Source: Rhea pennata
Taxonomy: Eukaryota; Chordata; Aves; Rheiformes; Rheidae
Length of the DNA: 64,000 bases
Reading direction: 5' to 3'
Assembly (NCBI RefSeq): GCF_028389875.1
Contig: NC_084671.1
Span: forward strand, 2,749,501 to 2,813,500
Numbering within the stretch: the first letter of the stretch is position 1; each line of letters begins with the position of its first letter. The position numbers were made by a program, and so were the translations under genes. The notes beneath the pieces are model-generated. The model worked only from the letters and a program-made list of their open reading frames with translations, was not told the DNA's origin and did no database searches. Shown here one piece after another: positions 27,021 through 64,000 of the stretch.

Positions 27021-28535
27021 GCGAGCAGGCGCCGGGGGGCTGCTCCTGCGGGGTGGTGCCGGGGCGCTCGCTGTGGCCTCATTTTGCTCTGTTTTGCTAA
27101 AATTCTTTAACCTCCCTTCGCTGTGTTTTGCTAAAAATCTTCGCTGCCGCTTTAGTGCAAGGGATCCGCCGAAGGAAACTGCTGTTCCCGCGCTCGCAGC
27201 GGGGCCGTGAGCGCCGCTGGCGTCCGTGCAGGCGCTAGCTGCTGCTTTTGCTCCCCCCCCCTCCGCCTTTTCTAAGAAACGCTTCGCAGCCGCGGCGGGG
27301 TGAAGGTCTGCGTGGAAACGGCGCCGAGGAGCCGCAGCTTGGACCTAACCCGTTCCCTTTTCCTTCTTAATGCAGGCGTTTAACACACTAGGATTTGACT
27401 GCACCCTTGAAGAGCTTGATCTTGAAGATATCACTAAGAACCAGATCAACACGATAAAAGCTTGTACATCTGAGGATTCAGGGGTATAAAAAAAAATTTT
27501 CAGCATCATATTTATATGGAACAGCCATATAATTCATCACACTTCCACCAATGATCATGTATCATTTCTTCTTTGGTTTGCAGACTGGAAACTGTCCAGT
27601 GCTGGAAAGATCTACTTTTAATACGGTAAATGCATTTATATCCCTGAAGAACCGCTTGTTTGGATGGCTGTACGTTCATGAAGCCTTTAGCAACGTATTT
27701 GAGCATTTCTAAATAATTCTGACATTTACAGAGTAAATGCCTGCAAGGTATCTATGAAGACCTGAAGGCCTATAGGGCAGAGCTGAAGAATTTCAGTGAT
27801 CAAAATGTGTTGACAACCATAGATGAGATGATGAAAGTAGGTATTTCTGTCTTCTCTTTTCCTTTGTAATTTCTGTTTTAAAGCAGAGATGTTTATCCAA
27901 CGTGTTCTATTCTGCAGTTAGTCAAATAATGAACTCTGAAGTGTGATTATTTAAAAACTTGTCTCAGCTTTTTTTCCTTAAGATCCTAGTAGTAAGTACT
28001 TGATTCTTACGAATTATGATGCATCTCATTTGATATTTTTGTCTTGCTGATATGATCAACACATCAATATTCAAATTTACAACTTTTAGGAGTCTTCATT
28101 CTTTCAAACTGCTCAACCCTTGTGAGGAGATGCTGGATTTTCTGCAAATTTCTATAGAGTTTCAGAAAAAAAAAATCAGAAAAAAGAGTAAAAGCATACG
28201 TAGCTCCATTTCTTTTCCAAATACCGAAATACATTGTCCTGGCATACTGAATATGAAATAGGGCACACTGAACTTCGGTAAATATTATTAGTGAGATCAG
28301 GGAATAGAGGTGACATTTTTGATTTGGTTACTTTTTGATTACACTTTCTAACACGCTTGCCTCTCCTCAGGCTCTGAGGAACAGCAGCACGAGCGTGCTG
28401 CAGCCATCGTCGAACACAGGATCGACTTTTAAAGACAGAATGAGACTATGCAGCGTTCTTCATGCTTTCCGAATCCGCACTGTGACCATAAACAGGATGA
28501 TGAACTACTTGACTTCTCTGGAAAGCTCGCTGTAA
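26835..28535 (+). CDS. IL12A: Interleukin-12 subunit alpha (p35), five coding exons
   Basis: IL12A encodes the four-helix-bundle subunit p35. It pairs with p40 (IL12B) to form secreted IL-12, which drives Th1 and NK-cell interferon-gamma production; it also pairs with EBI3 in IL-35. Coding exons are 26,835-27,020, 27,376-27,483, 27,584-27,625, 27,732-27,836 and 28,371-28,535, all in phase 0, giving 201 residues (mature human p35 is slightly longer). Residues 1-28 form a Leu/Ala-rich signal peptide. Diagnostic blocks are [15 protein letters not shown] (exon 2), [16 protein letters not shown] (exon 4) and [18 protein letters not shown] (exon 5), the last matching the p35 C-terminal helix. Sequons occur at N132 (NFS) and N151 (NSS). 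The start has a good context (CACCATGG). Intron 1 seems to use a GC donor. The ORF is intact. Confidence 0.95.
27376..27483 (+). CDS. IL12A: IL12A coding exon 2
   Basis: 36 codons after the acceptor CTTAATGCAG, up to GGG|GTATAA. Carries [15 protein letters not shown] and the Cys of KACTSED. Confidence 0.9.
27584..27625 (+). CDS. IL12A: IL12A coding exon 3
   Basis: 14 codons ([14 protein letters not shown]) between GGTTTGCAG and ACG|GTAAAT. Matches the Cys-containing loop of p35. Confidence 0.88.
27732..27836 (+). CDS. IL12A: IL12A coding exon 4
   Basis: 35 codons from [12 protein letters not shown] to TTIDEMMK, flanked by CATTTACAG and AAA|GTAGGT. Corresponds to the central helix with the conserved IYEDLK block. 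Confidence 0.92.
28371..28535 (+). CDS. IL12A: IL12A coding exon 5 and stop
   Basis: 54 codons plus TAA after CTCTCCTCAG. Ends with [18 protein letters not shown] and a short LTSLESSL tail; this is the most conserved part of p35. Confidence 0.93.
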
Positions 28536-32962: not shown

Positions 32963-33267
32963 TTAAGTAAATGTAATACAAGTTTGACTGGTACCTTCTA
33001 GTACTTCAAGTACGTCGTACGACACCTTATCTTTGAGACTGTCGTAGAGACTTTGTGCCGTTCCATTGCTCTGCTCTCTGTCCCTCCACTTGCTTAACAT
33101 CAGAAATTTATGAATGTTGACTTCCTCCTCCTTCGCCTGAATCTGATGAATGTCTTTCATTTCTAGCTGAAGACACTCGATGGCAATTTCTTTCCACTCT
33201 CTGCCAAACCTCTTGGCGATCGCCATCAGTTGCTGGTCAGTCAGTAAGCTTTTCGCTTTAACGCCGT
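32963..33267 (-). CDS. FIIND-DD gene, exon 14 (death domain and first stop)
   Basis: It begins after TGTGTCGTTTCAG. Death-domain landmarks in order are LTDQQLMAIAKRFGREWKEI, the MKDIHQI helix-3 block, FLMLSKW and NGTAQSLYDSL, ending VLEVLEG. This is the canonical six-helix pattern with both conserved Trp. Read through, it adds nine residues and stops at 32,963-32,965. A possible donor at 32,994 (GAAG|GTACCA) would instead lead to further 3' exons. Confidence 0.88.
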
Positions 33268-36200
33268 CTGAAACGACACAGGACAAAAATCAGAAGCAGC
33301 ACTGCTCTTCGTGTCACACTTTTTAATTAAGGGATGCTGTTAAGCGTTGCGCGCTGCCAGGAGGCGCACAGCGAAGGCGGCCTTATTGCTCGGACAGCAG
33401 ATTTTCACTTTATTTGCCGATGCTGCGGCGGGTTACTCTCCTCGGTTTGCTATCGTACAAAACTCCCGGAGATTTCCGCATGTATCTTGTTAAGGTCATG
33501 CTGAGTGCACCTATCGTCCTAAGACTGCTGAAAAGATTGAAACCACCGTAGGTTTCAAGAAGAATAAAAAGCTAAAGTTTGGCCCCAATATGAGCAGTCC
33601 ATCAGAGAGAAAAGCGGAGCTCTGCCTGGCGAAAGCCCTCCCTCTGGTGGCAACGCACACCTACACACAAATCCCTGCTCCGTTACTTTTGCCGATATGC
33701 AAACCCATAATGGACTCAAAAAGCAAAACCATTAATGGTTTCAAAAAAATGACCAGGATTCAAATGCTATTAGGTATTTCCCCCCAAAGGAAAGCCCATG
33801 AAGAACAGGCACTGGAGGCAGAAAAAGTAAGACTGTAGTTGAAATATGGTGTAAAACTGCAAGATAAAGCTTTTCTATTATTATACTAAGGAATTAAAAT
33901 TATTTTATCCTTAATTTGCCCAAGTAACTATTAGCAAAGCTCTAAGCCTGCAGCTCTGGAAGGAGCAGGAGAATGGCTGGTAGTGTGGGCACCAGCCAGT
34001 CCCACCAGCTCTCAGGGCAGCAGTGAGCACCAGCCTGGTGCCAAGAGATCCTAGGGCACCAAGCGTCTTCTCTTGATGTCTCTGGACACCAGCATCTCCA
34101 AACATCAGGACAATAAATGGGAGCGGATTTCTTTCTTTTTATTTTTTTAATTTTTATTTCCAGAAAAATTCAGCCTCTGTTATGGCTAAGGAAATAGCCC
34201 AAATGAAAAAAAAACTTGAGACGCATAGTCAAAACCACTTTTAAAAGCTGCTATTAGTTCCCAGTCCAGGAAGACACTACCATCGTAGCTGACCCTCATA
34301 AATCCAACGCCCCCGCTGCTCCTCTGCACGTGCTTCCTGGAGGAAAGGCCATTAGCAGACACTGCTACCCCAAGGAGGGGTATGCACAAGCTGCACCTAC
34401 CACAGCAGCACTCTCTCCCCTTGCATTTGCTGGTCACATTCACGGTCGTCATTAAAAAAGTGAGTTAGTTCTGGAAGTTTAATTCACGGTATACAAGAAA
34501 AGCCTAACCTGGTATTTTAATCCACCCGTAAACACCCTACCTGCAGTACTGCTGCCCTTCCACTTTTTCTGGTAGTATTCTTCATCTTCAGAGAAGCTGT
34601 GGGTGGATTTACGTCTTTTGGTACCTGAGGAGGAAAGAACAGTTGCTGCTCCTGCTCCCACGTCACATATGTGGGACAGGGGCTAAGTATGCGCCAGAAT
34701 AAACTCCGGAGCATCTCCAAAGTGACTTACTGACTGTGCTTCTCTTCTGCTCGTTCCTGTTCTGCTCGTGATGTATCCAGTCACCTGCCAAACATTTTTT
34801 GTGGAAAGCAGAAGGTGAGGGAGTAGCTCCCGTTGCCGAGCCCCGAATCCAGCAGCTCTCCCGTGGAGAAGCCTGATGGGTCCCGGCTGGTGGCTGCGCT
34901 GAGACCTAACTGCCAGGCTCTGCAACGGCCTTCACTCCCCCCTTATCCGGCATGCCGCAACCCCTGCGCCGTGCAATCAAACCCAGTTCAGCATCCGAGC
35001 CCACGCCGCATCCAAATCACCCCCGTTTTCTGCGGGAACAAGCCAGCAGCCGAAACACGCCACGCTTACTCTCCCTTAGTTTCGCCTTCCACACGATCGC
35101 GTCGGACTCCAGTTCGACTAAGGACAAGGTAAAGTCATCCGGCTTCTCCAAATAGACCTCAATGTAACTTTTCAGCTTCAAGAGAGATCCATCCACAAAC
35201 TCAATCTCCTGCAATAAACGTAAGGAAGTTAAAAATAAGCTAACTTCAGCAGAAGCCATTGCCTGCTGGCACCGTCTGCAACGAAACTCCCACCTCCCGG
35301 AGCTTTGCCATCACCTCCAGCAGGGCCCAGCTTTCGCCCCAAGGTTTTGGGGCGCGGGAAGCTGCGACGCGCCGGGCGGCAGCCCCGCCAGGACCTTACC
35401 TCCGGAGTGATCTCAGCTTCCGGCTCGCAAACCAGGCGGTATCTCTTTCCTTTCTGCAGTAATTTTTGACAGACAGGGGGCTTGTCGATTTTAATGAATT
35501 TCTTGTTGGAATGTTTCACCGCCCTCGATATATCCTAAGATTTGAAAATACCACGTAAGGGTCGCTCGTCTCAGCACAGGAGCTGCTCACACCTGCATTC
35601 AGGCAGTGCTGGTATTCCTCGATGCTGCTTCCCTCTCTCCTACACCTTTGCGGATGGGCCACGGCGCGCCGCACCCAGCAAGCTACAGAGAGCTGCAGAC
35701 GCCCGACCCGACGCCTTGGCGAGGCGCTACAACTGCTCAAACGTCCCCTCTCGCCTTGGCCGACCGCTTCCTTCGGGATCTTCCTTCGGGAACGAGCTTT
35801 GGGGGCACCCAGCGAGGAACCCTACCTTTATGAAGGAGTCGTTGTTGGTGGCCACGTAGACGCGGAAGGAGAGGGAAGGGTGGCTGTCAACCACCTTGTA
35901 GAGGACCACGGCGCCGTGGTAGAGTAGGGGCTCCTCGGCCCGCAGCAGGGGCCCCACGGGGGACAGCGAGCTCACCAGCCACCGCACGTGCGACGGCGAG
36001 TACTCGGCCGGCGGCTCCAGCGCCGCGCCACCTCCTTTCTGGACGTGCAGCACCTTGAAGGCCGGGCGCGTGGTACCGTCTGCAAAGGCAACGGTGGCCA
36101 ACTGAAGGCATCCAGCCCCAGGGCCACTGGGCAGGGACGGGGCAGGGCAGGGCAGGGCAGCAGCGTGGCACTCACCACCCAGGCACAGCGCGTGGGGGAA

Positions 36201-37103
36201 GCTGATGGCCCTCAGCGCCGCGGCCGAGGCGCAGCCCACGTCGAAGAGCGGGCCGCCCACCGTCCAGGCGTCTCCCACCAAGGCCGCATACTTGCTCCAC
36301 GACAGCACCGAGTAGGTGACGGCCACCGCCTCGGTCACCTCGAAGATGAGGCCGGTGACGCTGCACTGGTAAGTGCCCTCGCCTTCCAGCTTCAGCCTGC
36401 AGCGGGCACAACCGGCAGAGCGAGCTGAGCCAGCGCGTGCTGAACATCCCCAAGACATGTTTTGCCAGGGATGGACAGCTTGGAGAACCTTCCCAGCCAG
36501 CAAGCGTGCAACACCTCGTCCAGATCACACAGGAAAAGTCTGTGCAAAAAACAAGGGAGGGTTTCCCCTCGGACCCCGCGGGCGCACGCCCAGCGGCTGC
36601 GAGGCGGCTCTTGCACAAAGCCTCACCTCGATAAAGGAGAGCCGTGCCCGGAGCGCGGCGCCCGGCCCGCGCAGCGGGACCACAGCACAACACCCGCTCG
36701 CGGCCGAGGCGACGCGGCACAGGAGTCCCTGGGGAGCCCAGCAGGCACCGCGTGCTGCGCCCCCACCAAAGAAGCACCGAGGAGCGTGCCTGCTGCTCAC
36801 GGCTTCGTCAACCGCAGCAAACCCCACTCGGAGCCTCCTCGGACCAGCAGCAGGGCCAGCATCGGCAGCACACACAAGCTGCTCATTTTTAACAATTTTG
36901 GGGGCGTCCTCCATCATAACCGCAAACATATTCACACTGCAAACTACTCTTCCTCCTCCTCTACCTGAAGGGAGAAGAATCTCGATGTGAACACACGTGT
37001 ATATCTATTGTATTAAAAAAAAAAAACATACAAGTACTGCTCTCCAGAAAGTCTCCTCGGGGTCACCTGCTCCTTCTGGACCTATATAAGAAGTAGGTAA
37101 AAT

Positions 37104-37134
<31 letters not shown>

Positions 37135-40100
37135 TATTCAAAAAGGTGAGGAGAGAACAGAATTACAATTTGCAGATTGTCTCATACAACTGTGATTTTG
37201 TTTCTTTTTTTAACATACGTTTTCATTTCCGCAGTGTTCACAGGGCGGCATGGAGTTCGCTCCTAACGAGAAAACAGCCAAATCGTCTCATTAAAATCAA
37301 ATTGGATGCTCAGGGAAAAAAAAAACAGAACAAAACAAAACGAACAATTGGCAATCTGTTAATACCTGATTCATTGCAGTGTGGTGGTGGTGGTGGTGGT
37401 GACTCTTTCTTTTCTTGTTCTTCATCTATAAAAAAGAAGATGTATAAGGCAGGTATCTAACACACCCCTCTGAGGGGGGGCCCTGATCTGTGGCTTTTGC
37501 AGACCCGGGAGCATGCACGCTGGCACAGGCTTCATGCTGCGAGGGACCAAGCTCAGCGCCGGAGCACAAGACTGACCAAACTGCAGGAGATTTGCAAAAT
37601 GCATCTGCACACTCCCGCACATGCACTGGGCTTTCCTGATTAGGCTTTCCAGTGTTTTTACCCAAAGAGATGCACTCGCCTTGCCAGCACTAAATCACTG
37701 TATCGCTACGCTTGCACATCACGGTAGGAATCATCTATTACTACTATCATTACCCACTTTGTCCTTCTAAAGCCTTAAAAGGCAGGTAAAAGAAGCAAAC
37801 ACAAAAGCATACTCACCTGACTTTCTCACATCCGACTCCTCAGTATCTGATGAGGAAAAAACTTTCTAATTATTTAAGTAAAAATAATCATATGAAACAA
37901 GAATAAATTGCTGGGGGGGGGGGAGTAACACATGTAAGCAAAAACCTGCAGGCTTTTCAGCAACAGCAACACTTCCTTTAATTCTTTTCGTGGCCATCCT
38001 GTTTCGCCACTTTTGCTGCCAACTTTGGAGCAGATTTATAGCTTCATGGTGTTTGGACAACTACCGTTGTATAAAAACAGCTGCATGGATTGTGTCTGGA
38101 GGCTAAAGCAACATTCGCTGCTGCTCCTCTATTCCTGCCCTGCTCAAAGCAGAGACCAGGGAAACAACAAGCCCACAAAGCATGATTTTTCTTTTCGATA
38201 TGCGGTCATGGAATTAACCCAGCAGTATGTTAACAGGGAGACTCCTCCCGTAAAACACCACTGTTTTAAGTTGAGTTTGTTTTCAAACGAGGGAAGATGT
38301 GCACACAGTATCGTAACTGCTCACCTGACTCATCTCCAGAGGTACTGCTGGAGTCACTGGCAGAACTGTCCTCTCCTGGGCAAAACCACAGCCCGTCAGT
38401 CACGGGAAGGATTCACAACAGTAAGTCAAAGATATATGTAGAAGTTTAAATGCATTATATTGATCAGCCAGCTGGATACACAGAGGGAAGGAGAAGCACA
38501 GTAGAGGGAAGTACAAAACCCTGCACAGCCCAGGACTATGTGCCTGCCTTCACCCTCAGCTCACCCCAGCTCAGCGCCCCGAAATACAGCACGTGGGATG
38601 TAAGGGGGAGCAGCACGTGGCTCTTGCAAAGGCAAACTGAAGAGAAAACCACCTTGCAAAACAAACGTCTGCAGGTGTGGCAGCATTATCTTCACTGCGA
38701 TTTTATTGCTGTGCAATAACAAACCGTTATGGGAACGTCACCTTCTGGTTATGATCACAGGAAAACAGGCTTTGCTCATGCCACGGGGGGTGGGGAGGGG
38801 AGGGGAAGAAAAAAAATCACAGGATTTTATGAAAATGTGACAAAAAGGGGGAGAATTTTATGAAAATTCTGTGCAGCAAAGGCTGCATAAGAGCAAAATA
38901 CCAAAATTCACACATTCAAAGGAAATAGAGTGAAACGTTGGAAGTGCCTTACTGCAAACAGCGATTTCTTTGCGCCAAGACTCATTTCTGAGCTTTGGGG
39001 CTGAGCGCAGGCTGCCGCTTACCTGGTTTACGCTCATCAGCCGATCCGTCGCCGTTGGTGATGCAGGCATCTGCGTCTGAAACACAGATGAGGGTACAGG
39101 TGCGTTTTCCACGGGAAAAAGGAGAATTTTGTGCACCTACGACCCCAGCAGCCAGGACCGCCCCGGCACGTGCTCCGCTGAGCACGGAGGAAGCAGCGGG
39201 CCAACGGGCGTCCGTACAGTCCGCGCCTGCGCTCCGGTGCGCAGAAATTAGGCAGTCAGGTGCGGACTCACTCTTCTCTTGGCATTTTTATACTACGCGC
39301 GTAACACGAAAGGGATAAGCAACAAAAAAAAAAATAGAAATAATTAAAAAAGCACAAGAAGACTGAAATTCTCCCGTGCGATGCTCAAGCGCTGCACGAG
39401 CCTCTTCAAAGCACGCAGGTGCACAAAGGGGATTTCTAGGAAGCCCGCGCCCGTACCTGCTTCGCCGGCAGAGAGGGCTTCGGTCCCGCTGGAAGACAAA
39501 GCGGGACACACGTGAGCGCGTCCGGCCGGTCTCGGGGGGCTCCGAGGGAATGTCAGCGCGGGCTGCGCGGCCCCGCCGCGGCGGCGCTTCTGCGGCACCC
39601 GGCACCCTCCCGGCGGCTTCAGGAGGCAGCGCGGGGCGCTGGGGGCGCCGCGGGGCGCTGGGGGCGGCGCGGGGCGGGCCGAGGCCCCGCGGGCGCCGCG
39701 CTCCAGCCCTCCCCGGGGGGCTCGGGGGGGTAGGGGGGGACACCCCAGAGAGCCCCACGCAGGGCCACGGGTGATTCCCAACCCCCCCCCCCCCCCCCCC
39801 ACTCCCGCGATCCGCCCCCCGCTAACCGCTCTCCGGGGAAAGGCGCCGGCAGCCTTATCTCTCGCCGTGCAGGAGCCGCGGGGGGGGGTTGGACACGCGG
39901 GGGAGGGGACACGCGCGCGGGGGGGGGACATGCACGGAGGGGCACGGGACACGCGCGGGGGGGGGACACGCGCGGGGGGGGGACACGCGCGCGCGGGGCG
40001 GGCGCGGCGCTGGCTCCGGGCGCGCTTTTGTCTGCGGCGGGGGAAGCTGCGGCCGCTCGCGGCGCCTCGTCGCGGCTGCGGCGGGGAGGATCGGGGGGGC

Positions 40101-40236
40101 GGAGGGCGACGGGAGGATGCTGACGGGGGGGAGGAACGGAGGGCGACGAGGGGACGGAGGATGCGGGACGCGGCGGCGCGGCGCGGCGCGGCGCTCACCT
40201 GCGCGGCACCTGCGGGCCGGCGGCGCGGCGCCTCAT
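32963..40236 (-). CDS. FIIND-death-domain protein (NLRP1/CARD8-like FIIND, C-terminal death domain)
   Basis: Fourteen coding exons, listed individually, have fully compatible phases and give about 493 residues. Residues 1-88 are Ser/Asp/Glu-rich and disordered. Residues about 89-346 form a FIIND: a ZU5-like half with TYQCSVTGLIFEV, SVLSW and GGPLFDV, and a UPA half with SLSPVGPLLR, LLYHGAVVLYKV and KIDKPP. Residues 347-392 are a charged linker, and 393-484 a death domain. FIIND modules in NLRP1, CARD8 and PIDD1 cut themselves and release a C-terminal signalling part. His182 (FKVLH) and Ser210 (SL|SP) match the catalytic His and nucleophile. There is no NACHT, LRR or transmembrane segment. The promoter is GC-box-rich and the gene is convergent with IL12A. 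UNC5CL and PIDD1 share ZU5-UPA-DD order, but the motifs here are closer to NLRP1/CARD8. The 3' end and exon 7 are the weakest parts. Confidence 0.85.
34541..34624 (-). CDS. FIIND-DD gene, exon 13 (basic linker)
   Basis: 84 nt, phase 1-1, between CTTTCCTCCTCAG and GCAG|GTAGGG. Encodes TKRRKSTHSFSEDEEYYQKK and continues to WKGSSTA. TKRRK resembles a short nuclear-localisation signal next to an acidic Ser-containing patch. Confidence 0.78.
34731..34784 (-). CDS. FIIND-DD gene, exon 12 (linker)
   Basis: 54 nt, phase 1-1, between ATGTTTGGCAG and GTCA|GTAAGT. Encodes DWIHHEQNRNEQKRSTV, hydrophilic and probably unstructured or helical. Confidence 0.7.
35070..35208 (-). CDS. FIIND-DD gene, exon 11 (end of UPA)
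   Basis: 139 nt between TTTATTGCAG and GGAGA|GTAAGC. Reads EIEFVDGSLLKLKSYIEVYL and then SLVELESDAIVWKAKLRE, like the terminal strand of FIIND (VWEA type). Confidence 0.85.
35400..35534 (-). CDS. FIIND-DD gene, exon 10 (UPA)
   Basis: 45 codons in phase 0 between AAATCTTAG and CGGAG|GTAAGG. Reads DISRAVKHSNKKFIKIDKPP and continues to AEITPE; the KIDKPP block and YRLVCEPEAEI match the UPA core of FIIND proteins. Confidence 0.85.
35826..36079 (-). CDS. FIIND-DD gene, exon 9 (autoproteolytic site and start of UPA)
   Basis: 254 nt between TTGCCTTTGCAG and AAAG|GTAGGG. Contains His182 in FKVLHV and, 28 residues later, Ser210 in SSLSPVGPLLR. In human NLRP1 the corresponding His1186 and Ser1213 are 27 residues apart and the residue before the cut is Phe. 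The UPA part continues with LLYHGAVVLYKV and LSFRVYVATNNDSFIK. Confidence 0.88.
36176..36396 (-). CDS. FIIND-DD gene, exon 8 (ZU5-like half of FIIND)
   Basis: 221 nt between GCCCGCTGCAG and GGGTG|GTGAGT. Carries TYQCSVTGLIFEV, VAVTYSVLSW, GGPLFDV and the FPHALCL block. Mammalian FIIND domains have the same order: C..TGL.F.V, then an Ser-Trp, then GPLFD, then PHF. Confidence 0.88.
36515..36539 (-). CDS. FIIND-DD gene, exon 7 (tentative 25-nt exon)
   Basis: An excellent acceptor (CCTTGTTTTTTGCACAG) is followed by 25 nt reading DFSCVIWT plus two bases. These phases fit exon 6 on one side and exon 8 on the other exactly. The peptide sits where FIIND domains begin, with a pattern like F-[ST]-P-x-[VI]-W. 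The donor ACGAG|GTGTTG is weak after +4, so the boundary is uncertain. Confidence 0.5.
37109..37134 (+). repeat. (GA)n microsatellite in intron 6 of the FIIND gene
   Basis: An uninterrupted GA dinucleotide run of about 12 units follows a short A run. Confidence 0.9.
37366..37425 (-). CDS. FIIND-DD gene, exon 6
   Basis: 60 nt, phase 1-1, between CTTTTTTATAG and TCAG|GTATTA. Encodes an acidic start (DEEQEKKES), six prolines from a CCA repeat, then HCNES. The triplet repeat suggests length variation between individuals or species. Confidence 0.72.
37817..37846 (-). CDS. FIIND-DD gene, exon 5
   Basis: 30 nt, phase 1-1, between TTTCCTCATCAG and TCAG|GTGAGT. Encodes DTEESDVRKS. Confidence 0.7.
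38325..38375 (-). CDS. FIIND-DD gene, exon 4
   Basis: 51 nt, phase 1-1, between TTTTGCCCAG and TCAG|GTGAGC. Encodes GEDSSASDSSSTSGDES, a Ser-rich stretch with several SxxD/E casein-kinase-2-like sites. Confidence 0.75.
39023..39076 (-). CDS. FIIND-DD gene, exon 3
   Basis: 54 nt, phase 1-1, between CTGTGTTTCAG and CCAG|GTAAGC. Encodes DADACITNGDGSADERKP, acidic and low-complexity. Confidence 0.75.
39457..39488 (-). CDS. FIIND-DD gene, exon 2
   Basis: 32 nt between TTTGTCTTCCAG and GCAG|GTACGG, encoding SGTEALSAGEA. It joins exon 1 in phase and leaves one base. Confidence 0.65.
39782..39800 (+). repeat. Poly(C) run in intron 1 of the FIIND gene
   Basis: Nineteen consecutive C are flanked by more C-rich DNA. 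On the transcribed strand it is a G run able to form quadruplexes and is prone to length errors. Confidence 0.9.
39885..40000 (+). repeat. G-rich minisatellite with GGGGACACGCG units
   Basis: About six imperfect units of GGGACACGCGCGGGGG type, 15-22 bp long, differ mainly in G-run length. The block lies in intron 1, just inside the CpG-rich promoter of the minus-strand gene. Confidence 0.85.
40199..40236 (-). CDS. FIIND-DD gene, exon 1 with start codon
   Basis: Encodes MRRRAAGPQVPR plus two bases, ending AG|GTGAGC. The ATG has G at -3. The same frame stays open upstream to another ATG at 40,513-40,515, so a transcript starting further upstream could add about 93 residues of Pro/Arg/Ala-rich sequence. 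The upstream part consists of GC boxes and is more likely promoter. Confidence 0.7.
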
Positions 40237-52975: not shown

Positions 52976-53095
52976 TTATTGCTGTACAGTTACACCAGCT
53001 CTTACTGCTGGACTATCTGCTGTTGCTGCTCGTTGTCTTTCTTTAGCAATTTCCATCTCTATTTTGGCTTTGATTTTATTCCAATCAACTTCCAG
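52976..53095 (-). CDS. IFT80: IFT80 last coding exon
   Basis: 39 codons and TAA after TTCTTGCAG. Reads [20 protein letters not shown] and ends VRAGVTVQQ; the [12 protein letters not shown] helix is diagnostic of the IFT80 C-terminus, while the tail beyond it is not conserved. Confidence 0.93.
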   Translation of the reverse strand: MEVDWNKIKAKIEMEIAKERQRAATADSPAVRAGVTVQQ

Positions 53096-56000
53096 CTGCA
53101 AGAACAGAAAAGAGAGTATGCAGAGGTCAACTAACATTATACAGAGAGGTTACATGGATACCTATTCCTTAACAGGAAAATGTCAAGTTACAATTTGTTA
53201 AGTGACTTTATCTATGGTCACATAGTTCTTCACCTGTAAGTTACAGCTTACATTAATATAAAGCATCAAGAACTGTCAAGTTCTAATGAATTGAGCTTTC
53301 CATACTTAAAACAAAACAAACTTGATTTTTAAAAAAACAAATATGACTATATCTCATTGCACCTGGTAATAAAACATTAAAACATGAAAATAACTTAGAT
53401 CAGTCTACTGCCTCTCATCTAACGAAATACAATGAAATCTGTGTCCTATTATTCAAAATGTAGCCCTTTATCAGTAGCACATGGTATAACTTCTTTTGAC
53501 CACACCTGAAGTCCATCAGGTAAAATGACGGCATATACATCAGTTATCTGATATAACAGAAATCAAATTTCCACTTGAAATTTTACCTCTGCATCAATAC
53601 ATGTTTCAACTTTATCTTGGCACTTCTCCAGCTGCAGAAAATCATCATCTTGTGACTGTATTTTATTTCAGTGAAACTTTAGACAACAGATATAGTACAG
53701 TATCCATGGTACAGTGGGGTACAACAGTTGCCTTTTTTTCTCCCACAAATACTTGACAAGAAAGAGTGGATCACGGTGTATTTGATGACTGTGAAAAACA
53801 TCCAAAAACTGGACAAAAGTGTAATTGTGAAGTTCAATTTCACTGCAGGAGGAGTATCAAAGATAGGCTGGGAAAAAATACCTCAACTGCGGCACAAGCA
53901 ATTTTCTGAGTAACTGTTATTGTGTTAACTCACAAAATAACAGGAAGATCTTCTATTAGGGAAGATGCAACTGTACCCACATTTTCATGTGAAAAGGTTT
54001 ATCCTTCAATTCAGGATGTATTTGCTGGGTCCAGGTGCTTTAGATCTGATGACTGAAATCTTTATGGAGCTCTAAGAAAGAATGTGTTTGCTTTAACAGA
54101 TGTCACACAGATGCTAACATACCTAAGGGCTAATTCTGCCAGCTAGCCCAAGGGCTACTTGCCAGTGAAGTCAATGATCCTTGCCAGTGACACCTAGTAA
54201 CTGCCAAGATACAGACTTTCAGTATACATAGCAGGTTCATAATACCTTACATATGAAGATGTGAGAAATAACAACTAAGCACATTGTTTAGATTCTGCAT
54301 CTGATTGCTGATCAGCGGTCTCTGCTGCAGTACGGAAAAGAGGTAAGAACTTCCTGCTTAAGCCTGAAGAAATGTTAGGTGATTAGAGGGAAAGTGAGAC
54401 AAATCCCTTCTCTGTTCCCCTTTTGTCTGAGGAGGAAGAACAGCATAAAACCTTGCCTTTTCTCTTCGATGCTCTTACTGTTTGCTTCTAGATCTGCTAC
54501 CTGAGCTTGACAGGCTGCACTAAGAATTTTGTTAACACTGTAGCCAAGACCGCCAAATCCACTTCATTGGATATGTTGCCTTTTAATTTTAGATCTATCA
54601 GCCAAGACCTCCAGAACACAGATATGGATTACAACCCAAGCATTTGATGACTTTCTGCATTCTGAAACCTGAAGTTCAAGACGGAGAGCAAGATGAAACA
54701 CTTAAAAAGGTCCTCTTCACACCTTGCCACTGTCAAGGCACTACTGCTTAGGATCCCTTCCAGAAATTAGCTTTATTATGATTTAAAGACAGTATTATCT
54801 AAAAAGTTATTATCTAAATTATCTAAAAATGCTTCTTCCAGATGCATTGATCTTTGCTCACTAATGGGTCTAAAGCACATAGAAGACCCAGACAGCTTAG
54901 CTGCTGAAATTGATGTATAATAAGAGTACTTGGAATCTCTTATCTTTTCTCCATCCTCTAGATAAAGTACTGCAGACTTCCTTATCAGATGCCTACACAC
55001 CTTGCAGATTTTTCTTCTGTTTAGGAAACAAAACATCCTTAGAAGCGCTAAAAGCTAATGCCTTACACTATAAATTAAGTTTTAATAAAAGTGTAATGGG
55101 TACTATCCAAAGGATCCAAGATAGCAGCTACAGCACATGGAAAGATCTGATACAGCCAGAGTACACATCTTTTTAAAAAAAGTCTTACTCTCAGAGAGCT
55201 CACAAACAGGAGAGGGAAACCAGTACAGAACTTTGGGCTGCTCAATCTGCAGAGAAGGTCTTAGGAGTTTTATTGGACAAACTGACCATGAGCCAGCAAT
55301 GCGCCCTTGTAGCCAAGAAGGCCAATGGCATCCTGGGGTGCATTGGGAAGAGTGTTGCCAGCAGATTGAGGGAGGTGATCCTGCCCCTCTCCTCAGCCCT
55401 GGGGAGGCCTCATCTCGAGTACTGTGTCCATTTCTGGGCTCCCCAGTACAAGAGACATTGAACTACTGGAGAGAGTCCAGCATAGGGCTACGAAGATGAT
55501 TGGGGATGAGGAAAGACTGCAAGAGCTCGGCCTCTTTAGCCTGGAGAAGAGAATACTGAGGGGATCTTACCAATGTTTACAAATACCTCAAGGGAGGTTG
55601 TCAAGAGCACACAGCCAGACTCTTTTCAGCGCTGCCAAGTGACAGGACAAGTGGCAATGCGCACAAACTGAAACACAGGGATTTCCACCTGAATATGAGG
55701 AAAAACTTCTTTTCCTGTGAGGGTGACAGAGCACTGGCACAGCTTGCCCAGAGACGTTGTGGAGTTTTCTTCCGTGGAAATACTCAAAACCCGCCTGGAT
55801 GTGATCCTGTCCAACATGCTCTAGGCGCCCCTGGTTGAGCATGGCGGTTGGACTAGATGATCTCCAGAGGTTCCTTCCAACCTCAACCATTCTGTGATTC
55901 TGTAATTCAATTAAGTTGCTGTCTCAGGTGTACCTCTGGTACATCTCATAAAAGAAAATGCACAGAAGATACTCCAGTGGAATCTAAGATACTTTTAGCT

Positions 56001-59000
56001 GAAGCTAGAAGTATCATGAACCATATGATCTCAGTCTTTAAGATCTGTGAAATGCTAATAGATTGAAATGACCTAATGATGATGAAGACGATTTCCAGAG
56101 GTTTGATGAAATTGTGTATTAAACTATTTGTCATATTTGGCAAAACAGTTCATAGTTCACCCTTAATGGATGGCCTTAATGTCTGGATACCTTCAAAAAC
56201 TGTTATTCCCACTATCTATAAGAGTATGTAAAAACGTTGAAGATATTTAAGAGGTACATATTCAGCCATACTAAGGCTTATGTCTCTATGGCTTTATGAA
56301 AAACAACTGTGCCTTCATTTGTATAATCCTTGCCAGATACTAAATACCTACATTCCATATCTGTGCCTTCAAATAAAACACATGCGCAAATATTAGTAGC
56401 CACGTAGCCAAGTTACGAACTTGCACTTAACAGTTAGATGTAAAACTTTAAGATTTATATCCACATTTGAACCAAGGAGAGTTCAAATGTATGACCTTTT
56501 TATTATTTTCTTTTTAGCACAAAGAGTAGGCTGACCTAAAGTGGATGCTGAAAAAGCTCACCTAAGGCTGAATAATTTCAAGGAATACTTACACCTTCTG
56601 CATACTGTAAAAACCTTTTGTTGGTTTCTTTTTTACTGAAGTCCTCTAGGAACTTTTGTCGATAAGCCAGAACTGTGTCAACATGTGTCTTGTGCTTGAC
56701 CGCTAGTTCTAGTGCCCTAGAATAAAACAGGAATAAAATGGGATTGTCAGGCTATATAAATGCTCTGGCACAACTACAATCACAATGGCTTTGCAAAAAA
56801 GACATGCTGAACAGTGTCTGGGCTGCAGGCAAAGATTTCTGATCTATAGTGCCAAGCAGTTTTACATTATTACCAATCACAGGAGGTTAAAAGTAGCCAA
56901 CATGTCATATACTGTCTGTCTACTTTATGATGCATATTAGGAAAAACATCCAACAATTTATTTCTGTTCACAATTTTGTCTCATGATTGGAGTCTGACAG
57001 GAGGAGGCTTTTTATTTCAAGGAAATGGAAAAGAAGGCATAGGCTTCTGTGTTCTCAATAAAAAGGGGCAAAAGGAATCATTTTCAGTAAAGTTACTATA
57101 GTCAGGAGTTATAAAAATCTCCTCTGAACAGTGTCATTTTGTGCATCCAGAGCATATGCTATGCAACATTTAAGAAAATTTTAAAGGTGAGTAAGATTAG
57201 CCATTGTATTAAAGTAACTAATTACTCTTATATGTGTTTTCTTCTCAATGACATAAGGAATACTTCTATTTTATACATACAGCTTTTAGATGGTACATAT
57301 TAGGCAACGCAACAAAAAACACAGATATATGCTTCTGGGGAAAAAGACCTTTTTGCCCACAGTGACATATGCAGTTAGTAGTAAATGGCCTCCTAAGATT
57401 CTGTTAGAAAACCTGGGTTGTTGTCTAAAGGAAAAATTTTTCCTATCCTGTTTTCTCATTCATATTTTATCCACCTACACACTGCTGGGAGTCTAAATGA
57501 CTATATATCTATTTTTAGCAACTAGATATTTCAAAACAGCTTTAATTCACTGAGGGTCACATGCAGTTTGAGGTATTACTAAGGATGTTTCCAGGTTGGC
57601 AATCATGAAAAAGTAAAACATCATTTGAAAATGTTTCAGATATTTATTACAGAATACCATTATCTTCTAAATATGACAGAAAAATTAACCATTTTACTTT
57701 AGTGTATTGTTATGATATGATTTACGTCATCTTTTTACAGCTCTGAGCAATTACAGATAGGAAATCAGTCAGCTAATTATCTGGAACAAAACAAATGATC
57801 CAAATACTTCAAATGTTACCTCAATAAGGCAGCTCATAAACATACTATGTTTAGAGAAATACTACCTATCCCAATTGTAAAGATTAATGTTGATTTGAAT
57901 AGCTTGGTAAATAAGGCCTGTCTGAAGAAGCAAGGTTTCAGCTTCCTGGGTATTTCCACTGAACAGCAGTATATGAGCCATCCTTGATTCTTTTGATGGA
58001 AGATCTTTGATGAAATTGATAAACTGAACTTTGTCGATCTGTTAATGAAATGTATGATAGTTTACTAAGGGAAGTCGATTAACAAAATTAGTTTTGCAGT
58101 AATTTAACTAGGAAATAGTTAACTGCATTTTCTTACCTCACCAATTGACGCATATGCAATTTCTGCTGTAGCCATATCTTTATTGGCAACTGCCATAGCA
58201 GCTAAACAGGCCCACATAGTCTGATCCTGAAATTAAAATAAAATACAACTTCTAAAACCTCATGAATTTAATATTATACTGAAATTGACTTCTAATATAA
58301 ATTATAAAAATCCTGAAAATATTCTACCACGATACCACATTTCTCAGTTATGTCATTCCCTGTACTGTGGTCTAAATGTTTTAATGGAAATCCACTACTA
58401 AATTAATTCTCAGAGCCCCTTCATTATAAAATTTTTGATGTTGTGATTGACAATGTGGCTAAATGAATCATTAGTTTTCAGTAGCTCAGCCAGTAATGAG
58501 CTGTTGTCATAGCATCACTTTTAGAACCTAATCACTGGTGCCACTATCACACTACTTTTGGAAATCAAACACTGGCTCAAGTTACAAAAAATTATTTTAA
58601 CCTGGTTCGCTTTAACCTGGCCTCATAAATAATTGTGCTGGAATTGATGCTGACAAACTGCAGCACGGGGAACATGGACATCTTAGGAAGGCTTTACTGC
58701 CAAAGCCAGTATCTCATTAAACTATGCTGTTACAGTGTCATAGTTTCCATAACAACCATAAATGCACTTTTATCATAAAGGTACTACAAATTGAAGAGAA
58801 AAAAAATCTTGATAGGAGAACAAACTATGAACCTACTGAAAAGAGAACTTCAGAAGTTCTGTCTCCTTTCAGAAAGTACATTTAACACTTAGAATTAAGA
58901 ATTTTAGAAAAGCTTCACGGTAATGACAATTTACACCTTTGTTCTCTGTTTTCATGACTCTTGCATTTTTATGCACTCTTAATAAAATCCCACAAGCTCA

Positions 59001-62000
59001 GAAAAACCTTTAGGAAAATCCTAACATTTTGATAACTTCCTTTTTCAAGTCCGACTACATTAGGACAAAAAATATATTACTAAATTACACTAGTTAATAT
59101 GGCTACTATGTCTACTACTAGTAGTAAATAGGCTACTATGTCTAAAAACATTAATTCAGACAGAACAAATATAATTTTGAATGTACTTGTCAGTCCATAT
59201 GCACCCTGGTAATAAAGTTGTTTTTAAGATTTTCGTTACATATGTTCAATCACAAGTTTGGAAATAACCCGTTTTTGCAACGTGGACAGGTTTTCAGGAG
59301 CAGCCTGAGAGCCCTGTTGATTTAAACCACAGTATACTCTCAGTTTACTGAGTATGTTCTAAATGTCTTCCCATATCCTGTCTTACGATCACGATAGTAT
59401 GTGACAAAACGATGAGACCCACTGAAGTCAGTGAAAGACAGAAAGCTAACCTGAGGCTGTGGCTTCATTGCCAGCATCCCTGTGCCTGGTCATGTATTCC
59501 CACCCTTTCCCTCACTTCCATGATTTAGGAAAAGTTCATCATTTTTGCCGACAGCACACATTTGCAAGGTTTAAAATTGTTCAGAGAACTGAATCCTCAT
59601 AAAATCTTTCTCATATTCTCTTCCCACTTCCCTGTTTAGGTGATAAAATGCTAAAGCTCAGCCTGAAATTACGTAAGACCATGTTTCTAGGATGGTTCTG
59701 TTCTCTCTTTGCTCAGAAATATCGCCCTTTTCCTTATTACTGATCAGAAACACTGTGAAATGTCTGGTTGCCAAAAATCAGCAAAATAACTCTGTATCAC
59801 CATGGAGTTTTAGAATCATGAAAGAGGAGCAAAGAACTCAATGCACAGAACAACTGCAATGGCTTTTCGTTTACGCTGATTTAAGAGCATTCCAGGTCTT
59901 CCCTTAGCCCAAACACAGATTATGAAACACAAAGGACATTCACGTCATCCCGTTCAGGTGGTTTTCGTTTACCTTACACCTAAGACAATAACTTTCCTTT
60001 GTAATCAATAGAAGGGAGAAGTGTTCAAACACTGAGACCTAAGTACCCGAGATGCCTAGAAACACATGATGTGAATATTCTCCACAGCAAAAACAAAGAT
60101 TCTGTTACAGTCTTTCTTGAGAGAAAGGCCTTACACACTTGTTGACAGATGTGGACTAGTGAGGAAAAACTCACTAACAGAAAACAGGGAGAAGAATATG
60201 ACAGTAATATTACCATTCATTAGAAAGCACTGAAAAACTTTATTCCTTAATTCTTTGGATAAAGCTAGCCTTAAGAATGCAGCTGAAGCATGAAAAGATG
60301 GTAAAAAAAAAATCCTCTGATTATAAAACTTTCATAGTAATCAGAGAGAAATGATAGTATGAAAGCTACCACCCAGTATAGGTGTTCTGTTTTTAAAGAT
60401 GTTACATCTAAATTACTCACAAAGCTAATATAACATTGGATTTGAAATGCCAGTTCCCGCTGCCAAATACTGCAATAAAAATTACTGAAGGGGCAACACT
60501 CAGAATAAATATCATTATACAACCCAAACTATCTAGAGGTGTACTGATTTATTAATGCAAATAATACATACTTAAGGTCATGGTAATCATACAAAAATGC
60601 TAAACTGTTTTCTAAGTGTTAGTGGGGCAAAAGGAGGCAGGTTTTTTTTCGTTGTTTTTTAAAGACTGCCAGACTCACCTCATCTGTGGCTGTTGTCTAA
60701 ATACATACAAAAGAAAGCAAAGGAAAAAAAAACAAGTGAAATAAAATATGAAAAAATACTAGATAACTGTACATGGAGATATATATATATATTTAAATTA
60801 GTTATACTAACGTCTAGTCCTGAAAAGTTAAGCATATTACTAACTTTCATGAATATCTTTGTTTAATCTTATTTACACCAAAGACCAAATGGAACTATGA
60901 ATTTTCATGATCGGACCAAAAATCACCAGCAACAAAGTAAAAAGTAAACAAGCAGTTTGACGAATGGAAATAACTTAACATTTCAAACGCAATTATCATT
61001 ACTGAAGTAATACTTTAAAACATAAATACAGTATTTCAGTGAAATTATATCTGAACTTTGCCAATTAAAAATTACCTTGACAAAGCGACACAATCTGACA
61101 GCATCTTCCCATTTAGAACTACTAACATATTCATGAAGAATCGCAGGATAAGGTGAAATATTAAGGTGAATAAGTGAACCATCTGCTCTTCTAACTGTTA
61201 TCTGATTTCCTACAAAGTGCACAATCTGGGGATTTTTGCTAAATTCACTGTTTAGAGAAAGATAGATAAGTTAATATTCACTCCTTTCTTAGTGAAAAGA
61301 ACAGCAGGAAGAGAATAATTATATTCTATTTTCAAATCATAAAAAATCTGAGCATCTAGTTATTTAACATTCAATAGGTACTTGCAAAAGTAAAGTGATA
61401 CTTATGCATATTCACTGGCTGCAAGGCAAATGCAAATCAGGTATTTGTGCAAATACTAGATTTTAAAGTACTATTTTCAGTTAAAAAAAAAAGGAGAAAA
61501 AAGGCTTCTATGATTCCTAGAATAAAGTTAAGAACTGAGGTGTACTATTTGAAGAATTTCATATCAAAAAGTATTGTAAGAAGGGAGAAACAGACATCAG
61601 TACTTCTTAATGGGAATGTTCCACAGGCTGAAGTAGTTATCTGTGACCAAATATTTTGATACTTTTCATTTAAAACAGATGTTTTAAACAGATCAATTAT
61701 TTTATTTTCAAAAACAGCCAAGACAATATTTCAAAAGATTTGATTAAAATTTTGCTTCTGCATCAAAATAACATTCTAATTTTAAATTGTACTGTTACCA
61801 TTTAAAATCCAAACATCATAGTATACCTTATAAAAAGCTTCTTCCTAATTCCCTGATCTAGAATTAAGAATACAGAAGGAATTTTGGATACTGCAACTCT
61901 GGCATCTATTTCAACTGGCAAAATTAACACAATTCTTTAATAAACAAGTAAATAATTTGAAAAAATATTTGAAATACATACTAACACTGTATGAATCAAA

Positions 62001-64000
62001 AGGATGTATTATTACCTTGCATCTTTTTCATACAGAGTTTTTGGCAAAAGATCTTTGTCTACATAGACCGTGTTGGGGTAGTACCACACCGTAAAACGGG
62101 TATCCTGAATCCCACAAAGTATGTTAGAAGTGTCATTCCAAGCCAAAGTATGAACCATTGTGCCTTAATTTAAAGATAACAGAATATTATGCATTTCCAC
62201 AAGAACCTTCCAAACAACTACATACTTCTTGAAACTGTATTATTAATAAAGGAGGACTTACTAGCTCTTTTTATAAGCATTAGTCTTAACCCCCTAGTTT
62301 GCAAGGTAAAATCTTACAAAATTGAATTTGGCTGAAAGTTATATGTTTCTGGCATTCACATTCTTCATTTCTGATTTTAATAGACATAAAGTAGCTTGGT
62401 ATTGTTGGTTTTATACTGTTTTTTAAGACTTTATTGATAAATTATTAGTATGCAGAAGATACAAAATACTAGAAGCAATGGCTCTTCATGGCTTCTTAAC
62501 TGTTGCTTCTTAGTTTCTCTACCGAGTGCAAAGCTAGCTCCTTTTTCAAAATACCTTTTTGGAGCTAGTTTTGAGAGTGCAAATCAATATGAAAGTGAAG
62601 GCCAGGCTCCACCCTGACATTTACTGAATCATGCGTCTAGCTACAGAATTTAAGCTTTTATTTTAAAATATCATGTACTTAAGAATTTGAATCATCAAGA
62701 AAAATTCTGAAAGATTCTATATTCAAACGGCCTGAATAATTCTGAGGAATACAAGCTTCTCCGGTATTGTCTTTATTGCTTACTCTGAAATATAACAGTA
62801 AGTGCTTGAATGTGAACAACTGTTTTACTAGTAATGACATAAAATTACCAGAATTTAGATAAAACATACTAAAATTGTTTCCATCACTATCTTAAGGAAG
62901 CCACAGGACTATTCAGAGTGTTTTGACAAGTCCAATTTCACCACTAATTAAAAAACTAAATTTTGTCTCTTGTGCTGGATGAAAAGGTATCCTTCTGCTA
63001 GCATACAGTTTAATGTTTTTAAAAAATTTTTCTTACCTATTTTGACAATCTTCTGTTCTTTTCCAAACCTTTTAACTGAAGTAATGTGAAGATCTCTATT
63101 CTTATCAATAAAAACTATCTTTCTTTCACTTGTGAGTCCCTTCTGATCCAAAGCAATCTCCACAATTTCTGTCTAAAAATGAGAAAGAAAATACCTCATT
63201 TTTATGCTGAAGATCTGTATTAGAGAAAGCATGTGATATTCAAACAAATGAATGCCTTACTAAAACCAAGACAAACTCTTTAAAAGTAGGATTGTTAATG
63301 CACTTGTTATCCCCAAAGAAGCTGCCTGATCTTGCTTTATTACCTTAAGTCCTTTCTTATATACCAGAAGAGTGAAGAAAGGTAAAATACAGTTCATGCA
63401 ATCATTTTGAAGGAAAAACAGTAAAAACTCCATTAAAGACTGACCTGTGTTCATGCACTGTCTTTTCTTCAGTGTTAGAGGGACCTGAGCTAATAAAATC
63501 TGCTTTGAAGTACACACAAAGGAACCGAATTCATCAGTTTTACTGCATAACACAACCACTCACCTGTAGTTTCAAACTCTTATGTGCATGGGATATCCAT
63601 GTCAGTAACCAAAAACAATATATAGTACAACCTTTTGTATATCAACACTGCATATAGAATCTAATTATTGTTATAAGAATCAACTAGATTCATCAAACTG
63701 TTCTGTATCAAGATTTTGATATAGCCTTTAATAGCTTTTCGTTACTGATTATTACTTTCAAAATATAATCAGAAAGAGGCACTATAACCTTCATCTTACC
63801 GCATGGGTTAGAGGCTTTCCATCACCCAGTGGTTTTCCAGATAAAGCTTCAAATATGTAGATAACTGAAGAAAAAATGTTATATGGTTTATTAATTAATG
63901 TTTCTTCATAGATTTTACAAGTAGTCCCACTCATTTACAGGGTATAATGTGTAGATACTTATTACCACATGCTTGATTTATCAGTGACTTTGATATTCTG
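52976..64000 (-). CDS. IFT80: Intraflagellar transport protein 80, C-terminal half (partial)
   Basis: IFT80 is a subunit of the IFT-B complex that moves cargo towards the tip of cilia; human mutations cause Jeune-type skeletal ciliopathy. The full protein is about 770-780 residues with N-terminal WD40 repeats and a C-terminal TPR-like helical region. This window holds eight clear exons (52,976-53,095; 56,593-56,716; 57,866-58,038; 58,137-58,226; 61,076-61,247; 62,016-62,163; 63,037-63,172; 63,800-63,864), about 342 residues from the second propeller to the end. Matching blocks include [77 protein letters not shown] and [15 protein letters not shown]. All phases agree. The gene continues beyond the right edge. 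It lies on the opposite strand to IL12A, as in human. Confidence 0.95.
53587..53631 (-). CDS. IFT80: Candidate 45-nt cassette exon of IFT80
   Basis: 15 codons, [15 protein letters not shown], between TTTTCTGCAG and GCAGAG|GTAAAA, phase 0-0 like the neighbouring exons. Its start resembles the last exon in DNA (GCAGCTGGA) and protein (LE....K....I..E). It could be an alternative exon born by duplication of the last exon, or a chance match. Confidence 0.35.
55230..55904 (+). mobile_element. CR1 LINE 3' fragment in the last IFT80 intron (copy D)
   Basis: Antisense to IFT80. Contains the [20 protein letters not shown] block of the ORF2 end, a stretch where the [16 protein letters not shown] region is partly deleted, and the 3' block GGTTGGACTAGATGATCTCC with a terminal ATTCTGTGATTCTG. 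Truncated and non-functional. Confidence 0.92.
56593..56716 (-). CDS. IFT80: IFT80 exon with [15 protein letters not shown]
   Basis: 124 nt between TTTTATTCTAG and AAGGT|GTAAGT. Reads [20 protein letters not shown] and ends FLQYAEG, nearly identical to the known protein. Confidence 0.95.
57866..58038 (-). CDS. IFT80: IFT80 exon, TPR-like helices
   Basis: 173 nt between CATTAACAG and GATAG|GTAGTA. Reads [18 protein letters not shown] and [20 protein letters not shown], ending with NLYNWDR. Confidence 0.95.
58137..58226 (-). CDS. IFT80: IFT80 exon with [15 protein letters not shown]
   Basis: 30 codons in phase 0 between AATTTCAG and GTGAG|GTAAGA. Begins [11 protein letters not shown] where the human protein has [11 protein letters not shown]. 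Confidence 0.95.
60679..60696 (-). CDS. IFT80: Candidate 18-nt microexon of IFT80
   Basis: Six codons, TTATDE, with a strong acceptor (TTTCTTTTGTATGTATTTAG) and a perfect donor (GAG|GTGAGT). It sits in the intron between ...RFVK and DQTMW..., both phase 0, and would insert six residues without changing the frame. Not part of the human protein as I know it. Confidence 0.4.
61076..61247 (-). CDS. IFT80: IFT80 exon with [19 protein letters not shown]
   Basis: 172 nt between CTCTAAACAG and GTCAAG|GTAATT. Contains [20 protein letters not shown] and [18 protein letters not shown]. Confidence 0.95.
62016..62163 (-). CDS. IFT80: IFT80 exon with [12 protein letters not shown]
   Basis: 148 nt between AAATTAAG and GCAAG|GTAATA. 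Contains [20 protein letters not shown]. The acceptor has a short pyrimidine tract. Confidence 0.94.
63037..63172 (-). CDS. IFT80: IFT80 exon with [20 protein letters not shown]
   Basis: 136 nt between CATTTTTAG and ATAG|GTAAGA. Begins [20 protein letters not shown], part of the second WD40 propeller. Confidence 0.95.
63800..63864 (-). CDS. IFT80: IFT80 exon with [11 protein letters not shown]
   Basis: 65 nt between TTTTTTCTTCAG and ATGCG|GTAAGA. Reads [20 protein letters not shown]. Confidence 0.93.
63966..64000 (-). CDS. IFT80: IFT80 exon cut by the right edge (uncertain)
   Basis: The donor ATGTG|GTAATA on - marks the likely end of the preceding exon. The frame required by the next exon reads [10 protein letters not shown]. 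The frame that better resembles the known protein before IIFLFEA reads NIKVTDKSS and is shifted by one. Either the boundary is elsewhere or a small indel is present. Confidence 0.4.

Follow-up and report, generated by a model that had tools for sequence, protein, structure and literature searches.

A FIIND Gene Ending in a Death Domain between IL12A and IFT80 in the Genome of Rhea pennata

Introduction

Whether the FIIND, known from proteins that end in a CARD, can also serve a death domain (DD) is the question raised by a gene on the minus strand of a 64,000-nucleotide stretch of the Rhea pennata genome (NC_084671.1, positions 2,749,501 to 2,813,500; hereafter the window), in which a full FIIND is followed by a DD. 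The FIIND is joined to a CARD in NLRP1 and CARD8, and certain proteins combine it with TRADD-N (PMC8195603; the papers given here by PMC number are drawn on in excerpt). A UPA-CARD fragment is released when NLRP1 or CARD8 loses its N-terminal part; the free NLRP1 fragment is held by DPP9, and in the presence of the UPA, CARD8 filaments form at almost 100-fold lower concentrations (PMC7794386, PMC8081665). No report of a vertebrate FIIND-DD protein or of a PYD-DD adaptor was found among the titles and abstract openings listed in a search of the non-subscription literature; automatic database annotation may well already name the FIIND-DD gene.

A Full FIIND Followed by a Death Domain

The gene was found to consist of 15 coding exons, joined into one open frame of 517 codons including a single terminal stop (516 residues), which runs from the start at position 40236 of the window to the stop at position 32963. 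All 14 introns are of the GT-AG type, with phases consistent throughout, and the gene is almost certainly real. A preliminary description of the locus, made from the sequence, had given exactly this start, stop and agreement of phases, without naming the strand, but had counted 14 exons. The Pfam FIIND profile matched residues 116–243 (7.7e-35; 119.8 bits, cut-off 25.8; profile positions 5–129 of 131, near complete), followed by UPA-FIIND at residues 248–366 (1.6e-25; 90.3 bits, cut-off 27; profile positions 2–116 of 117) and Death at residues 427–506 (8.5e-7; 29.5 bits, cut-off 22.6), the last domain scoring 3.2e-8 and 34 bits when exon 15 was searched alone. The sole further match of the full protein was DUF4503 (0.19), far below its cut-off. 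No ZU5, NACHT, LRR, ankyrin or CARD match was obtained in this search, in which E-values up to 10 were permitted, yet HMMER filters discard most matches above about 0.1. No transmembrane segment was apparent, the maximum mean hydropathy over any stretch of 19 residues being 1.47. Both the full FIIND with its DD and the lack of NACHT, LRR, ankyrin and transmembrane parts had been noticed previously and are borne out. Residues 1–103 are acidic and of low complexity, with 24 Asp/Glu and 40 Ser/Thr/Pro/Gly.

The closest PDB sequences to the FIIND part were rat NLRP1 (2.8e-20), human NLRP1 (1.4e-14) and CARD8 (2.6e-13); the last three of the nine matches were unrelated proteins (E-values of 0.034–0.83), and the nine included no chain of PIDD, UNC5 or an ankyrin. 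As to the concern that the region might be a copy of PIDD1 or UNC5CL, this result and the lack of a ZU5 match give it the look of neither, nor of an ankyrin copy. With FIIND and UPA-FIIND above their curated cut-offs, the protein has the domains of the NLRP1/CARD8-type FIIND family, and with Death above its own it belongs to the death-domain proteins; where the CARD8 and NLRP1 inflammasome sensors have a C-terminal CARD it has the Death match instead, and it was found to have none of the ZU5 type, LRRs, ankyrin repeats or membrane part that mark PIDD1, UNC5CL and the ankyrins.

Candidate Cleavage Site and UPA Loop

Cleavage of CARD8 is impaired by mutation of His252, His270, Glu279 or Ser297, and the F296H mutant has a severe defect (PMC3210808). 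Rat NLRP1 has H942 as a catalytic residue and is cut between F968 and S969, with F968 placed in a hydrophobic pocket; the Phe-Ser motif is conserved across NLRP1 homologues and CARD8, and the UPA-UPA loop of the rat protein involves N1032, P1034, P1035 and V1037 (PMC8081665). The four CARD8 residues align, respectively, with the His of FPHA, the His of VLHV, the Glu of ALE and Ser233 of the window protein. The putative cut site, SSL/SPVG (between Leu232 and Ser233), has Leu instead of Phe at position 232 and departs from the Phe-Ser motif, a feature absent from the preliminary description, and the sequence after it, SPVGPLL, resembles SPLGVLL of human NLRP1. The loop IDKPPV of the window protein retains the KPP of the UPA-UPA surface in the PDB-search alignment. 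Leu shares the bulk and hydrophobicity of Phe, and adhesion receptors have it at the same position of their self-cleaving GAIN domains; for these reasons cleavage was judged the likelier outcome, and from its sequence the protein is rather probably self-cleaving.

A FIIND-CARD Paralogue in the Same Genome

The FIIND search of the Rhea pennata genome returned four matches, representing two loci: the window gene and a gene on contig C17, with exons from about 15308050 down to 15300768. The latter ends in a CARD (Pfam 7.1e-19), with PDB matches to human CARD8 (4.7e-13), an ASC construct (1.5e-8), rat NLRP1 (0.0018) and human NLRP1 (0.015), and has the usual cut site, NPSF/SLLG (between F and S). 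A FIIND-CARD gene thus accompanies the FIIND-DD gene in this genome. Five intron positions in the FIIND, compared by eye, are common to both genes, with their phases: before the ZU5 core (phase 2), within the ZU5 half (1), in the early UPA (0), after ITPE (0) and at the UPA end (1), which supports exons 8–12 of the window gene. The death-fold exon, encoding the DD in one gene and the CARD in the other, starts in phase 1 in both, so a swap of one exon is possible.

Over the stretch compared (the ZU5 half and the first part of the UPA), the window protein was 28.6% identical to the C17 protein, whereas the latter was 44.2–44.8% identical to mammalian NLRP1 and CARD8; the window FIIND shared 28.6–33.3% with the four other FIINDs, against 44–65% among those four. 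In the alignment with mammalian NLRP1 and CARD8, a comparison that the preliminary description had proposed, the identity of the window FIIND was 30.7–33.3%. The window gene is no obvious recent copy of the C17 gene, and is either an old paralogue or a fast-changed one. About 2.5 kb upstream of the C17 gene, on the same strand, lies an open frame with a ubiquitin-like domain (Pfam 1e-13), which may be the first exon of that gene or a separate gene; pieces of endogenous retrovirus gag-pol were recognised by eye just downstream of it (lower part of C17:15295001-15300000).

Kinship of the Death Domain

The window DD was compared with the other DDs of the genome among 30 of the 37 Death matches, which were retrieved with the window DD included. 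Its closest other relative was the DD at C29:3246810, together with the near-identical copy at C29:3294852 (38.6% over 88 residues, 1.2e-14), followed by a THOC1-like DD (4.9e-11) and a CRADD-like DD (6.5e-8); such locus labels are our own assignments, partly from PDB or Pfam matches. The closest other relative of the C29 DD was in turn the window DD (1.6e-15), with CRADD next (1.4e-13), making the two reciprocal best matches among the 30 retrieved loci. With 500 shuffles, the window DD gave z values of 24.7 against the C29 DD, 18.2 against the THOC1-like DD and 13.9 against CRADD. In a tree of 20 of the 30 domains, 10 partial matches being excluded, the window and C29 DDs were paired at 87/73, and CRADD joined the pair at 86/87. 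The PDB matches of the window DD were THOC1 (best, 5.8e-7), ankyrins (9.7e-6), CRADD (2.9e-4) and PIDD (0.023); no FADD entry was matched at E-values up to 1.

The PYD-DD Gene and Other Possible Partners

The C29 protein is encoded by a single intronless open frame and carries a PYRIN domain (2.8e-9) and a Death domain (2.0e-10), its best PDB match being CRADD (2.7e-10). Judged from the sequence, it is a candidate partner beyond the adaptors named in the preliminary description. Its two copies (C29:3242001-3252000 and C29:3290001-3300000) lie 48 kb apart and share about 99% identity over most of 10 kb (99.3% over a stretch of 7.7 kb, with 98.0% and 99.5% over two others). The genome search gave six PYRIN matches, five of them above the cut-off, the sixth being on contig C61 (E-value of 0.93, below it). 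Two of the five are the C29 copies, and the remaining three have a NACHT within 0.8–2.6 kb on the same strand and were taken as NLRPs; the C29 PYD-DD protein is accordingly the only non-NLRP PYD protein above the cut-off. The five PYRIN matches are on contigs C5, C7 and C29, where none of the 123 CARD matches of the genome falls, and no ASC-like PYD-CARD gene was found at the sensitivity of these domain searches, which can miss weak or split domains. This agrees with the reported lack of PYCARD in birds, PYCARD not having been found in chicken, zebra finch and turkey, nor GSDMD in chicken, according to the excerpt of PMC13076529.

The idea that the PYD-DD gene is a relocated ASC gene was rejected, as the 10 kb around one copy (3290001-3300000) hold other neighbours: one gene encodes a decarboxylase (Pyridoxal_deC, 3.5e-70), and another has a thyroglobulin repeat (2.8e-7) together with a weak match to IGFBP (0.0027, below its cut-off). 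Presumably these are CSAD and IGFBP6. Neither FUS nor TRIM72, which flank ASC according to the excerpt of PMC13076529, was recognised in the same 10 kb.

Matches to DPPIV_N were found at six places in the genome, of which those on C10 and C27 are, by their pattern, inferred to be DPP8 and DPP9. In the genome match lists, caspase-domain and Death matches are more than 1.5 Mb apart wherever they occur on one contig; with no DD caspase apparent, an adaptor such as CRADD would be needed. As a separate observation, 98 of the 123 CARD matches (by subtraction of the 25 elsewhere) form a near-identical repeat family on both strands of C143, a contig of 4.05 Mb. One of these CARDs (locus L055) was closest to the CARDs of NLRP1 (1.5e-20) and ASC (1.8e-19); no FIIND or PYRIN match was listed for this contig in the genome searches, and two long open frames of the repeat unit gave no Pfam match.

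Exon Structure and Neighbouring Genes

The exons are listed in Table 1. Homology supports exons 8–12 and 15, and exons 1–7, 13 and 14 were placed by splice signals, phase and open frame. Exon 8 was selected because the frame enters exon 9 in phase 2 and the FIIND match becomes longer, starting at profile position 5 instead of 11. Six phase-1 exon candidates (four distinct, all in the model) were found in the 3.1 kb tested, whereas the opposite strand had one and 72,000 bases elsewhere had 29, or 1.25 per 3.1 kb; this control used a hand-written splice matrix, is not gene-free and overlaps the FIIND-DD gene in part. Exons 13 and 14 are frame-neutral, and the join between UPA and DD is therefore independent of both. 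Three other readings were rejected: an exon at 36964-36874 (GRGGGRVVCSV...) as the FIIND start, the exit phase of which suits exon 9 but the entry phase of which misfits exons 7 and 8, its frame being without a Pfam match; a PEETFWRAVL reading of exon 8, with which the donor fails to connect to exon 9; and an additional exon within intron 14 (34464-34186), also in a frame without a Pfam match. Around exon 1 (39700-40300) the window is, by eye, highly G+C-rich and contains a poly-G/poly-C run as well as repeats of CCCCCCGCG, which could impede short-read sequencing of the 5' end of the gene. The gene lies between IL12A, the neighbourhood of which had been recognised before, and IFT80, both located with hand-typed human probe sequences.

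Table 1. Coding exons of the FIIND-DD gene and flanking genes, in window coordinates.
Feature	Position	Strand	Content and evidence
Exon 1	40199..40236	-	Start codon; 84% G+C; MRRRAAGPQVPR; donor GTGAGC, phase 2 out; splice evidence
Exon 2	39457..39488	-	N-terminal tail; splice, phase, open frame
Exon 3	39023..39076	-	Phase 1-1, acidic tail; splice, phase, open frame; phase-1 candidate test
Exon 4	38325..38375	-	Phase 1-1, Ser/Asp-rich; splice, phase, open frame; phase-1 candidate test
Exon 5	37817..37846	-	Phase 1-1; splice, phase, open frame; phase-1 candidate test
Exon 6	37366..37425	-	Phase 1-1, poly-Pro; splice, phase, open frame; phase-1 candidate test
Exon 7	37219..37262	-	End of N-terminal tail; splice, phase, open frame
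Exon 8	37032..37081	-	First residues of FIIND ZU5 half (...EQYL); Pfam FIIND extension; phase 2 intron as in C17 gene
Exon 9	36176..36396	-	FIIND ZU5 half (GTYQCSVTG...GGPLF...FPHA); Pfam and PDB matches; phase 1 end as in C17
Exon 10	35826..36079	-	Candidate catalytic His (VLHV), Glu (ALE), putative SSL/SPVG cut (between L and S), UPA start; alignments; phase 0 end as in C17
Exon 11	35400..35534	-	UPA with KPP loop (IDKPPV); Pfam and PDB matches; phase 0 end as in C17
Exon 12	35070..35208	-	UPA end; Pfam and PDB matches; phase 1 end as in C17
Exon 13	34731..34784	-	Linker, optional (54 nucleotides, frame-neutral); splice, phase, open frame; weakest acceptor of the model
Exon 14	34541..34624	-	Basic linker (KRRK), optional (84 nucleotides, frame-neutral); splice, phase, open frame
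Exon 15	32963..33267	-	Entire death domain and stop; Pfam Death 3.2e-8; phase-1 start, like C17 CARD exon
IL12A	27364..28511	+	3 pieces; 43-53% identity to human probe
IFT80	53012..63865	-	8 pieces; 61-88% identity to human probe

Proposed Mechanism and Alternatives

There is about an even chance that the locus is a functional host gene encoding a compact cytosolic tripwire acting in the manner of CARD8, the freed UPA-DD of which engages RAIDD-class DDs. From the gene structure, the domains, the conserved catalytic residues, the paralogue and the kinship of the DD we infer a course from expression and cleavage to oligomerisation, partners and outcome. The disordered acidic N-terminus (residues 1–103) would serve as degradable bait, and the FIIND would cut itself between Leu232 and Ser233, its halves remaining associated. 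If the N-terminal part were lost, or if DPP8/9 failed to hold it, the UPA-DD fragment (residues 233–516) would be set free, and UPA oligomers would cluster the DDs and recruit RAIDD-class DDs, namely CRADD (and through it a CARD caspase, for example caspase-2), the C29 PYD-DD protein, or both. The gene would share common descent with the FIIND-CARD genes, the phase-1 death-fold exon having been swapped in either direction.

Several points weigh against this proposal. Phe, otherwise conserved before the cut, is replaced by Leu, and F296H at this position cripples the cleavage of CARD8 (PMC3210808); additionally, one extra residue separates the candidate catalytic His from the Glu in the alignment. 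The tree supports are moderate, with neither the CRADD branch nor that of the pair starred. The THOC1-like DD ranks ahead of CRADD in the genome comparison, and the DDs of THOC1 and the ankyrins outscore CRADD in the PDB, which makes the class of partner tentative. Of the FADD, RAIDD and MyD88 classes suggested in the preliminary description, the RAIDD/CRADD branch has the most support from sequence, and RAIDD-class signalling is a tentative prediction, given slightly less than an even chance.

The departure at the cut site, with the defect of F296H in CARD8, would also suit a constitutive brake that no longer cleaves, with free C17 UPA fragments trapped, or DPP8/9 occupied, by its ZU5 half and RAIDD-class adaptors buffered by its DD, and the identity of the window FIIND to the other four (28.6–33.3%, against 44–65% among them) may reflect a changed constraint. 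Such a brake is unlikely, however, given that the nucleophile Ser, both His and the Glu are retained, as is the KPP loop, and that Leu is found at the same place in self-cleaving GAIN domains. It is more doubtful still that the protein is an apoptosis regulator like PIDD1, its UPA-DD binding only CRADD and activating caspase-2 upon an internal cue, for instance stress on DNA or the centrosome, and playing no part in infection. By type, the FIIND and UPA belong with NLRP1/CARD8 and matched no PIDD chain, the PIDD DD was a weak PDB match of the window DD (0.023), and the disordered tail resembles that of CARD8; nevertheless, the window DD falls in the CRADD branch of the tree, and the domain order is that of the C-terminal part of PIDD1 (PMC3210808; the PIDD-CC fragment, PMC7308375). 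A decaying or non-expressed gene, or a FIIND remnant wrongly joined to a neighbouring DD gene, is very improbable: the 516 codons contain no stop or frameshift, the 14 introns are GT-AG and in phase, five of them being common to the C17 paralogue, and the frame can run from the UPA of exon 12 into the DD exon whether or not exons 13 and 14 are included. What favours it are the exons placed without homology (1–7, 13 and 14), the weak acceptor of exon 13 and a gene model that was built from genomic sequence.

Should the tripwire be the correct reading, the FIIND release mechanism would be a module that takes different death folds through the swap of one phase-1 exon, and birds may have wired the FIIND alarm to a different cell-death pathway. 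A wider bird death-domain inflammasome, in which the FIIND-DD protein would be the sensor, the C29 PYD-DD protein would link NLRP PYDs to DDs as a split-ASC adaptor, and CRADD (DD-CARD) would supply the CARD for recruiting the caspase, is a rather improbable extension; if true, PYD-DD and DD-CARD proteins would jointly replace the function of ASC (PYD-CARD) found elsewhere. The FIIND-DD gene, its CARD8-like paralogue and the PYD-DD gene are named genes for the question of inflammasome-type signalling in birds without ASC.

Comparison with Known Systems

Among the known proteins, human CARD8 shares with the window protein a FIIND with ZU5 and UPA halves (33.3% identity over 150 aligned residues), and it too lacks NACHT and LRR and has a disordered N-terminus, which the window tail resembles; it differs in its terminal CARD and in the Phe before the cut, where the window protein has a DD and Leu. 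Human and rat NLRP1 (31.5% and 30.7% identity) have the same SP at the UPA start and the KPP loop, but carry NACHT and LRR in front and a CARD at the end. The C17 gene agrees with the window gene in five FIIND introns, by position and phase, and in starting its death-fold exon in phase 1; its protein differs by its SF/S site and CARD8-like CARD. The order ZU5-UPA-DD also occurs in UNC5CL, the ankyrins and DTHD1, the UNC5s having a membrane part, and none of UNC5CL, UNC5B, the ankyrins or DTHD1 was matched by the window FIIND query in the PDB. In UNC5B, likewise unmatched, the same order is described in the excerpt of PMC3210808. The green anole gene LOC100556846 is similar in that its FIIND is joined to a death fold other than a CARD, without NACHT or LRR (PMC13076529), although this fold is a PYD where the window gene has a DD. 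PIDD1 shares the order ZU5, UPA, DD and cleaves itself (PMC3210808), and its self-cut C-terminal UPA-DD fragment (PIDD-CC) binds the DD of RAIDD, leading to caspase-2 activation (PMC7308375); it differs in its LRRs and HF/S sites, and was unmatched by the FIIND query. By analogy with these systems, the window protein would combine the release system of NLRP1 and CARD8 with an output of the PIDD1 type.

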